This document shows positions 21,984 to 24,705 of a DNA stretch of 64,000 nt, piece by piece. Numbering within the stretch: position 1 is the first letter of the stretch; every line of letters starts with the position of its first letter. A program made the translations under genes and the position numbers. The notes beneath the pieces were generated by a model. It was not told the origin of the DNA, did not search any database, and saw only the letters and a list, made by a program, of their open reading frames with translations. Source of the stretch: Spirochaetales bacterium. Lineage in GTDB: Bacteria; Spirochaetota; Spirochaetia; UBA9216. Location: assembly GCA_016839055.1 (NCBI GenBank), contig JAEKNX010000007.1:62001-126000 (forward strand), read 5' to 3'.

Positions 21984-23171
21984 ATGAAACTATTAAGCTC
22001 TTATTTTAAAGAGATGAAGATTGCTGCCCGGGGGTTTTACTTTTACATAGAAATCTTTTTTGCAGTTATACTGCTTGTTATACTCCTTGTTGCAGTTAAT
22101 GAAAAATCGGTCAGCAAACAAAAGGAATTTCTGTACTACGACATGCCTGAGGCGTTTAAGGAGTTTGTAATACAAAGACAGATCGATAAGGGTGCTTTGA
22201 AGTTAATTGAACCTACCGAGTTTAAAATGAAAGCCATTGGGTTTGAAGTTAAGAATGAGGAAACCGGCGAAGTTGAAACTTATAATTTTGATGCGGAGAT
22301 TATTAGCTTGAGGACATACCAGGAGTATGATCTCGATACTGGTGAACTTAATAAGACAGCATATATCGCAGACAATGAAGAAGACATGATCCGCCTGGCT
22401 TATCAAGAACAGAAAATCGGTGCAACAGTTGCAGTAAACGATCAAGGTGAAAGATCCTTTCGGTACTATAACCAGGGTTATGAGACAGATAAATTTGTAA
22501 ACCTGCTCTACATTCTGCACAACAAAACGCCTGATGTGCTGGCAGCAGCAGTAGAGAGTCAGGAGGTCACAAAACTTGGCGATATCCAGACTTTAAATAA
22601 CCGCGAAAATCTTGTGCCTGTAATGGTTGTTTTCATGGGTTCACTTATGGGGTTCTTTATAGTCATGGCATATATATACCTTGATAAGGATGAAGGTGTA
22701 ATTCGCGCGTTTGCTGTTACACCCTCATCCATATGGAAATATCTTCTAACCAAAACCATGGTTATAATGACAACTGTCGTTGTATCATCCTCGATAATCA
22801 CAATCCCGGTCATGGGCTTGCAGCCGAACTATTTTCTGTTTTATCTACTGCTAATAATTTCAACATTTGCCTTTGCCTCCCTGGGCTTATTTATTTCAAG
22901 CTTTTTCGACACCATATCGAAGGCGTTCGGCGCACTGTATATAATCATGATTGCAATGATGATACCGGCGTTCTCTTACTATATTCCTAGTTTTGATCCG
23001 GTATGGCTCCGGTTTTTTCCGACCTATCCGCTGCTGCAAAGCATGAAAGAGATAATTATGATAAATACCGATTTGGGTTATGTTTTAACTTACTCAGCGG
23101 TTTTCCTGGGCGGCGGTGTCTTATTGTTTGTGCTGGCAAATTTCAGATTTAAGAAAACACTGACGGTTTAG
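21984..23171 (+). CDS. ABC-2 type exporter permease, first subunit
   Basis: This is a 395-residue membrane protein. The ATG at 21984, just after the ATPase stop and preceded by GGAAGGGAG, was chosen over an upstream in-frame start inside the ATPase gene. One N-terminal helix (about residues 19-39) is followed by an extracytoplasmic domain of about 175 residues and six C-terminal helices. This is the layout of ABC2_membrane_3-type proteins. It likely forms a heterodimer with the permease encoded at 23281. Confidence 0.88.
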   Translation: MKLLSSYFKEMKIAARGFYFYIEIFFAVILLVILLVAVNEKSVSKQKEFLYYDMPEAFKEFVIQRQIDKGALKLIEPTEFKMKAIGFEVKNEETGEVETYNFDAEIISLRTYQEYDLDTGELNKTAYIADNEEDMIRLAYQEQKIGATVAVNDQGERSFRYYNQGYETDKFVNLLYILHNKTPDVLAAAVESQEVTKLGDIQTLNNRENLVPVMVVFMGSLMGFFIVMAYIYLDKDEGVIRAFAVTPSSIWKYLLTKTMVIMTTVVVSSSIITIPVMGLQPNYFLFYLLLIISTFAFASLGLFISSFFDTISKAFGALYIIMIAMMIPAFSYYIPSFDPVWLRFFPTYPLLQSMKEIIMINTDLGYVLTYSAVFLGGGVLLFVLANFRFKKTLTV

Positions 23172-23179
23172 GGAGAAGT

Positions 23180-23263
23180 GATCAAAATGAACGTCCATGT
23201 TCATTTTGATCCTGAAGTTTGATGAGTCAAACTTCACTGCCGAACCCCTCCATCCATGGAGGG
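23180..23263 (+). repeat. Triple-hairpin array 1 (between permease genes)
   Basis: Three consecutive inverted repeats fill the gap. They are a perfect 13-bp stem (23180-23192/23199-23211), a perfect 10-bp stem TGAAGTTTGA/TCAAACTTCA (23213-23222/23227-23236) and CCCTCCAT/ATGGAGGG (23246-23253/23256-23263). The first and third have the apical sequence C(A/G)TCCATG. A ribosome site TTGGAGG follows, just before the next gene. Array 2 at 24302-24406 has the same architecture. Confidence 0.85.
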
Positions 23264-23280
23264 TATTATTTGGAGGATTT

Positions 23281-24282
23281 ATGTTAAGCAAAATATTTAA
23301 AGTATTTAGTAGAGAATTAAAGACCGCGCGGCGTGATTCAATGGCTATACTGATAATCGTAATGCCGGTACTTTTTGCATTTGGAATAACTCTCTTCACA
23401 CCGGGGCTGAATGACACAACTGTAAATATTGCTTTGCTTGAAAGCGACGATAAGTCACATATTGAGTATCTGGAGCAGTTTGCAAAGGTGGAAATTTTTG
23501 AAAACAGAGAAGATGTCCTGACGCGAGTAAATAAGCGTGACGATATGGCGGCAATAATGCAAAAAGGCGATGGTTACGAAATTATCCTTCAGGGCAACGA
23601 GCCTGAGATTGTTGAGGGATATGCAAAAGCACTTAATGCCCTTTATGAAATCGGTGCTAACAAAGAAGAAACAACTGCCGCTATGTATTCATTCGGGCAC
23701 ACAGTTTCACCGCTGAAGACCATGCTTGTGAACATGCTTATATCTATGACCATTATGCTCTCGGGTATGCTCATTGCGATAAGCATAGTAGGAGAAAAGG
23801 CTGATAATACAATAAACGCAATAAATGTTACTCCTGTATCTCAAACTTCATTTGTAATAGGAAAAAGCATGATGGGAGGACTGATAGCAATGGTTTCAAT
23901 CATAATCTCCCTTTTTATTACAGGCTATTATGACATCAATTGGTTTATGATTATACTTGTCGGGCTGACTTCTCTCATTCTCTCGCTGGTAGTAGGCTTT
24001 GTGCAGGGCCTCGCGAGCGATGACGTTATAGAGGCTGCGGCTAATGTTAAAATGATTATGATCCCTATCGCCGGCTCAATAGTAGGCTATGAGCTGCTCG
24101 CTGATAAATGGCAGTGGACAATGTACTGGAGTCCATTCTACTGGGCGTATAAAGCCAATAAACTTGTACTAACAAAAACAGCTGACTGGCCGACCATCCT
24201 TCTTTGTACTGGCATGGTACTAGTGTTGTCGCTTGTAGTATATTTTTTAGCAAAACCAAAAATCAGAGAAGGACTAAGTTGA
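23281..24282 (+). CDS. ABC-2 type exporter permease, second subunit
   Basis: This 333-residue membrane protein starts at an ATG with TTGGAGG upstream. One N-terminal helix (about residues 21-42), an extracytoplasmic domain of about 100 residues and six C-terminal helices give the same layout as the first permease but with a smaller outer domain. The two probably form the heterodimeric channel. Hairpin arrays lie immediately before and after the gene. Confidence 0.88.
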   Translation: MLSKIFKVFSRELKTARRDSMAILIIVMPVLFAFGITLFTPGLNDTTVNIALLESDDKSHIEYLEQFAKVEIFENREDVLTRVNKRDDMAAIMQKGDGYEIILQGNEPEIVEGYAKALNALYEIGANKEETTAAMYSFGHTVSPLKTMLVNMLISMTIMLSGMLIAISIVGEKADNTINAINVTPVSQTSFVIGKSMMGGLIAMVSIIISLFITGYYDINWFMIILVGLTSLILSLVVGFVQGLASDDVIEAAANVKMIMIPIAGSIVGYELLADKWQWTMYWSPFYWAYKANKLVLTKTADWPTILLCTGMVLVLSLVVYFLAKPKIREGLS

Positions 24283-24301
24283 AATATATTTTTTAAGGAG
24301 G

Positions 24302-24406
24302 AATGATAAAAGGCATCCGTGCCTTTTATCATTTTGAAGTTTTGCACGCAAAACTTCACTATCTGGACCTGCCATACCTTCGGTGCTACTTCGTAGTCGT
24401 GGCAGG
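24302..24406 (+). repeat. Triple-hairpin array 2
   Basis: The first stem is 14 bp and perfect (24302-24315/24320-24333, loop TCCG). The second is 10 bp, TGAAGTTTTG/CAAAACTTCA (24335-24344/24349-24358). The third is CCTGCCA/TGGCAGG (24368-24374/24400-24406), enclosing two small hairpins ACC/GGT and CTAC/GTAG, each with a TTC loop. The ends of the middle stem (TGAAGTTT, AAACTTCA, then CT) match array 1, while the outer stems differ in sequence but not in form. Confidence 0.85.
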
Positions 24407-24428
24407 AAATTTTTATAGGAGAATTTGT

Positions 24429-24653
24429 ATGGGTACTGGATTTTTATTAGGCGGAATTGCATGTCTACTTTATGCACTGCTGGTTGGTTATTTCGGGGGC
24501 ATAAAAAAAGTTCCGGGGCTGCTGAAGCTTGTTAAAATGAAGCTGGGTAAGAATATGTCCGATGACGGGGCTGCGAAGGCTTGTCTCATTATGTCCATCA
24601 TCATTCTGGCACTTGGTATCTTTCTCTTTGTTTACGGGGGTATCCGGGGGTAG
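24429..24653 (+). CDS. Small membrane protein of the export operon
   Basis: This 74-residue protein has two predicted membrane helices (about residues 2-22 and 50-70) joined by a lysine-rich loop. The family is not recognised. The start has TAGGAG at good distance. An upstream ATG at 24303 in the same frame lies inside the hairpin array and was rejected. It is the last gene of the TetR-led operon and could be an accessory subunit. Confidence 0.65.
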   Translation: MGTGFLLGGIACLLYALLVGYFGGIKKVPGLLKLVKMKLGKNMSDDGAAKACLIMSIIILALGIFLFVYGGIRG

Positions 24654-24660
24654 CAGATTT

Positions 24661-24692
24661 CCCCTTCTTACGCCCTTTGGAGTAAGGAGGGG
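24661..24692. terminator. Hairpin between convergent genes, probable terminator
   Basis: An 11-bp stem (24661-24671/24682-24692, one G-T pair) with a 10-base loop lies between genes ending at 24653 and 24706. There is no clear T-run, so termination is inferred from position and stem strength. Confidence 0.55.
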
Positions 24693-24705
24693 GAGCTTTA
24701 CTGAT

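Follow-up and report, generated by a model that had tools for sequence, protein, structure and literature searches.

The window analysed here comprises 64,000 nucleotides of contig JAEKNX010000007.1 from a Spirochaetales bacterium, and all positions given below are those of the window. It contains an operon that encodes, according to Pfam, an ABC-transporter ATPase together with two ABC-2 type permeases. Array 1 is located between the stop codon of permease 1 (23169-23171) and the start of permease 2 (23281), and array 2 between the stop codon of permease 2 (24280-24282) and the start of a 74-aa protein (24429). Each array consists of three near-perfect hairpins (H1, H2, and H3), measures 105-125 nt, and lies between the stop codon of one gene and the start codon of the following one. 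The features of the locus are the following.

23169-23175, + strand: stop codon TAG of permease 1 (23169-23171), which overlaps the 5′ (ancestral) Shine-Dalgarno sequence (SD) AGGGAG (23170-23175); the same TAGGGAGG-type junction, free of the element, is found in the spirochaete G008, the congener G001, and the majority of the remaining orthologous operons retrieved
23176-23263, - strand: match of array 1 to Rfam family RF03162 (TD-2), 51.5 bits, above the curated gathering cut-off of 48.7 bits
23180-23211, + strand: H1 of array 1, 13 perfect pairs (23180-23192 / 23199-23211), apex CGTCCATG
23213-23236, + strand: H2 of array 1, 10 perfect pairs (23213-23222 / 23227-23236), TGAAGTTTGA/TCAAACTTCA
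23246-23263, + strand: H3 of array 1, 7 pairs, CCCTCCATCCATGGAGGG, apex CATCCATG
23272-23283, + strand: 3′ SD GGAGG of array 1 and start codon of permease 2 (ATG at 23281)
24296-24301, + strand: 5′ SD-like sequence AGGAGG, abutting array 2
24298-24386, - strand: match of array 2 to RF03162, 43.3 bits, below the same cut-off
24302-24333, + strand: H1 of array 2, 14 perfect pairs (24302-24315 / 24320-24333), apex CATCCGTG, 5′ arm AATGATAAAA
24335-24358, + strand: H2 of array 2, 11 perfect pairs (24335-24345 / 24348-24358), TGAAGTTTTGC/GCAAAACTTCA
24368-24406, + strand: H3 of array 2, extended, with an irregular inner part, CCTGCCA...TGGCAGG (24368-24374 / 24400-24406)
24417-24431, + strand: 3′ SD AGGAG of array 2 and start codon of the 74-aa protein (ATG at 24429)

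A preliminary description of this DNA had proposed two triple-hairpin arrays flanking the second permease gene, and both their coordinates and their pairings were confirmed. The second stem of 10 bp that it assigned to both is correct for array 1 but not for array 2, where there are 11 pairs, and the apex C(A/G)TCC(A/G)TG, described as shared, is present in both H1 hairpins and, among the H3 hairpins, only in that of array 1. Both arrays end about 10 nt before an SD, in agreement with the ribosome site that it had placed just after each of them. The SD-like sequence situated directly before each array (AGGGAG, 23170-23175; AGGAGG, 24296-24301) had been missed. When folding was compared with that of dinucleotide shuffles, both arrays folded far better on either strand, with z values of -4.8 and -5.1 on the + strand. 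It was also possible to see that a 116-aa ORF (24303-24653) begins inside H1 of array 2 and that another (23197-24282) begins in array 1; in both, gene callers may place the start codon wrongly. Array 2 is open and in frame with the 74-aa protein; a leader peptide or N-terminal extension was discarded, because other copies, for example L021, meet a stop codon.

The central palindrome of array 1, TGAAGTTT..AAACTTCA in H2, occurs 18 times in exact form in the genome, and the reversed-pattern control gives none. RF03162 gave 27 matches at E up to 1 in the window's genome and matches also in four congeners, and it was strongest in two genomes of 2.8 Mb (G029 and G049) that are probably of Treponema type, to judge from size and family, and carry the related family RF03155 (TD-1) as well. 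The covariance model of TD-1 had no match to the arrays of the window (22900-24700, E up to 1). This and related genomes were also searched with a model (R2) built from 15 copies. It detected 46 copies in the window's genome and 20, 19, 16, and 59 in its four congeners; outside the genus there were 8 matches each in G029 and G049 and a single match in G006 and in G008. The 50 remaining genomes of the class that were searched gave none, the genomes compared being mostly MAGs. Two of the copies (L012 and L013, at 120159-120347 of contig C3 of the window's genome) form a tandem pair of equal score, apparently a local duplication, and compound arrays were also observed at L018 and L144.

The position of the element with respect to genes was analysed in 52 copies that have the central palindrome, the long H1 stem being used to set their orientation; 44 of them had the canonical H1 apex. 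With ORFs and SDs called by simple rules and a permissive SD pattern, the SD and start codon of a sense ORF were found downstream of all 44 canonical copies, and on the antisense side of only 3 of the 44. The distance from H2 to this SD and start was mostly 41-54 nt, and greater where H3 was extended or the element compound; taking a 45-nt window, the downstream SD and start were present in 42 of 44 copies versus 6% of random positions in the same loci. The upstream gene was co-directional in 38 of 44, its stop codon usually lying at 12 nt or less from H1, and an SD-like motif was located within -12 to +2 of H1 in 37 of 44, versus 16% in upstream control windows. This placement was tested again on 30 loci found later with R2, and 29 of them obeyed it. 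Twenty of these loci took their orientation from the search, and 19 of the twenty obey; ten were in genome orientation, of which five plus-strand matches (L245-type) were read as they are and five minus-strand matches (L247, L254, L259, L261, and L266) were reversed; L259 and L268 were copies already known, which leaves about 28 new loci. In the window's lineage the element is thus nearly invariantly placed between two operon genes, at the ribosome binding site of the second.

The first junction of the ABC operon is filled in the window's genome (G000) and in G004. The 13 other orthologous records retrieved, among them the congener G001 and the spirochaete G008, have it empty. The empty junction consists of stop codon, SD, and start codon in G001, G008, and the other orthologous operons, which come from spirochaetes, Clostridia, and one actinomycete MAG. 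The comparison was extended to about 0.75 Mb of G003, where clear empty counterparts were found for five canonical copies (L021, L085, L101, L110, and L111); a sixth, that of L075, was less clear, with a weak upstream match. In addition, L021 and L072 are 92% identical elements with unrelated flanks. Taking into account the filled and empty junctions and the near-identical copies between unrelated genes, the element disperses, and it is not the result of parallel evolution of a regulatory leader. Of the options offered in the preliminary description, that of a mobile hairpin repeat was the one supported: there are tens of copies per genome, dispersed among unrelated flanks and with empty orthologous sites, as in a MITE-like element.

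The element of G004 at the first junction (L059) represents the same insertion as array 1 of the window (L001). The two agree in H2 and almost entirely in H3; the H1 of L059 is paired and yet largely different in sequence. To judge from these two copies, the difference suggests whole-hairpin replacement or palindrome correction. At the second junction of G004 (L068:2640-2775) there is a solo hairpin, CCCGCATCCGTGCGGG, where the window has the full triple array, and it may represent either a reduced version or a unit of its own.

A key aspect is the origin of the SD found on each side of the element. The clearest case is L085, whose empty site in G003 is GGGTATAGGGGTAGAAAATTATG and whose filled site is GGGTATAGGGG, the element, and TATATAGGGGTAAAAAGCTATG, with the same atypical SD of 8 nt, TATAGGGG, at the empty site, before the element, and after it. 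Long flanking repeats were seen in L059 and L021 (ATAGGRGGAATAAT; TAGGAGGAATGAT), and AGAGGA is common to both flanks of L111, so that a target-site duplication is clear in L085 and plausible in L021, L059, and L111. In most copies the direct repeats are degenerate and hard to distinguish from the general similarity of SDs. Among 44 copies, the 5′ and 3′ flanks of a copy were more alike than swapped flanks in a first permutation test (p=0.03), and a narrower anchored test, run afterwards as a second version, gave p=0.0009. From these flanking sequences, the duplication of the SD at insertion is supported, not proven. It might be proposed instead, within the reading of a mobile element, that the element brings its own 3′ SD, which would be retained only where it replaces that of the host, any short operon junction serving as target and no SD being duplicated. 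In favour of this, the 3′ ends are often TTTATAGGAG, and, given the shortness of operon junctions, an SD is close to any insertion made there. However, the 5′ SD abuts H1 in most copies, the near-identical L021 and L072 lose their similarity before the 3′ SD, and the host's own SD variant is present on both sides in L085, and less clearly in L111; a variant shared by both sides of L085 and its empty site is not expected from a constant element-borne SD. We consider an SD carried by the element rather unlikely.

The pairing of the stems was evaluated on 29 copies. Compensatory changes on both sides of H1 were found in 10 of 15 pairs in one alignment and in 12 of 14 in the other, values reached by 0 of 500 shuffles, and the covariation that had been guessed from two copies was upheld. 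H1 stems vary widely among copies while remaining paired, which simple copy-and-decay does not account for and which speaks against the mobile-element reading preferred below. Considering that an A-C mismatch on one strand is a G-U pair on the other, selection on an RNA of one strand should retain G-U and purge A-C. Within the stems both were equally rare (33 G-U and 38 A-C, binomial p=0.64), and this parity points to pairing that is kept or re-established in the DNA itself or on both strands, and argues against an RNA role as far as the stem sequences tell. Strong covariation alone is no proof of RNA-level selection, given that the stems here are almost perfectly compensated with G-U equal to A-C.

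These observations bear on a different explanation, in which the arrays are cis-acting RNA kept by selection at operon junctions, where a sense-strand triple hairpin would separate the cistrons by RNase processing, stability, or translational uncoupling, and initiation would be reset by the SD that follows the hairpins. The strict sense orientation, the fixed spacing to the SD, the very strong compensatory pairing, and the stable predicted RNA folds are all consistent with it, and TD-1, which is similarly placed, is typed as Cis-reg by Rfam. Against it, the G-U excess over A-C is absent from the sense strand, and from the other strand as well, most orthologous operons have no element, near-identical copies are dispersed, and the downstream genes are functionally unrelated. 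In 20 downstream proteins assigned with Pfam there were pyruvate-dehydrogenase-type E1 and E2, malic enzyme, malate/lactate dehydrogenase, a flagellar rod protein, prolipoprotein diacylglyceryl transferase, an aminotransferase, and others, and with such unrelated functions the hypothesis of a regulon was also rejected. We regard a cis-acting RNA as improbable, and the tuning of operon expression, which the preliminary description had considered, found no support as an account of why the element is present.

The reading we prefer, with a probability of about 0.7, sees in each array a single copy of a mobile DNA element of about 95-125 nt that is non-coding, non-autonomous, and rich in palindromes, belongs to the clan of TD-1 and TD-2, and in the window's genus inserts in one orientation into the SD region of operon junctions and duplicates the SD. 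No convincing terminal inverted repeats were seen when its ends were compared by eye. In the proposed mechanism the element would enter the SD region of an operon junction in a single orientation, and about 8 or more bases including the SD, its probable target, would be duplicated. The stop codon of the upstream gene would remain intact and the ancestral SD would stay before H1, while the duplicate located after H3 would serve the downstream gene, so that the operon could still be translated. The hairpins would be maintained as palindromic DNA, plausibly because they are recognised in single-stranded or cruciform form, or by palindrome correction between arms. In the mRNA, a triple hairpin would lie between cistrons. 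The hairpins must be transcribed within the operon mRNA, and a side effect on operon expression is plausible by analogy with ERIC, which alters the stability of upstream mRNA in an orientation-dependent manner (PMC2229807).

The two Rfam families of clan CL00124 were compared with the arrays. TD-2 (RF03162) has the same three-hairpin order, the central GAGTTT/GAAGTTT palindrome, and CNTCCNTG apices, and one array scores above its cut-off. It differs in that the Treponema-type copies occur in any orientation and away from SD sites, with neither SD placement nor orientation bias in G029 and G049, and in that Rfam lists it as a gene for an sRNA, on the opposite strand. TD-1 (RF03155) resembles the arrays in its sense orientation upstream of genes, with an SD ahead of a ATGATAAA-type left end and, at the right end, an SD and a start codon, although it is longer, with four hairpins and different apices. 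Reading by eye, the order of SD, ATGATAAA-type left end, hairpins, and SD was present in 11 of the 11 copies listed in G029 and G049. The copies of the window's genus likewise lie on the sense strand upstream of genes between two SD-like sites, and this common layout indicates that the SD-linked habit is common to the window's genus and TD-1. The absence of SD bias in the TD-2 of Treponema-type genomes indicates that not all of the clan targets SDs. There is perhaps an even chance that a mobile family exists which uses the SD itself as target and duplicates it, each operon insertion regenerating a ribosome binding site, with TD-1 and TD-2 as branches. If so, two unexplained Rfam families listed as RNA would be recast as dispersed DNA elements, and a mobile element could live inside operons without breaking translation by being flanked by two copies of the SD. 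No SD-targeted elements were retrieved by narrow phrase searches, which covered open-access papers, and TD-1 and TD-2 are absent from the main text of Weinberg 2010.

Taking the orientation given by Rfam, TD-2 might also be a minus-strand sRNA acting as a CsrA sponge, whose H1 and H3 apices, CANGGANG, resemble CsrA-binding hairpins. The window's genome has one csrA, and the Treponema-type H1 contains GUACAAGGAUGUAC on the minus strand, which fits the SELEX consensus RUACARGGAUGU (PMC7652899). But most SELEX ligands have four or fewer contiguous pairs (PMC7652899) and there are 13-14 here, the minus strand is antisense to an mRNA start in every canonical copy of the window's genus, promoter-like matches close to the arrays do not exceed chance, and the equality of G-U and A-C applies to this strand too, so that a sponge seems very improbable. 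In G029 and G049 (L149-L183), read on the Rfam strand, the CANGGANG apices of H1 and H3 have N where CsrA-binding motifs have N, and some H1 fit the consensus.

Among other repeats, YPAL/RU-2 of Yersinia and enterobacteria (168 bp) shares with a mobile element at SDs the internal inverted repeats, variably sized target duplications, and filled and empty sites (PMC2229807). Its targets span or adjoin dyad symmetry instead of an SD, and its sequence and host are different. ERIC and Correia/NEMIS are likewise short non-autonomous elements transcribed with neighbouring genes (PMC2229807); their architecture is different and the text of that review makes no mention of SD targeting. REP/BIME with RAYT are palindromic extragenic DNA repeats in tens of copies as well, but REPs are units of 20-40 bp tagged GTAG or CGTC (PMC3733652). 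No Y1 transposase (PF01797) was found in G000, G001, G002, G004, G029, or G049, and there was one frame-broken match in G003. Given its absence from the window's genome and the different layout, a REP/RAYT origin was rejected, and the BIME likeness raised in the preliminary description is not apparent.

In some copies (L008, L074, L127, L286, and 24368-24406 of the window) there is an extra hairpin nested in the H1 apex (CTAAAGTACTTCGTACTTT) or a larger H3, as if insertions could be accommodated in the apices.
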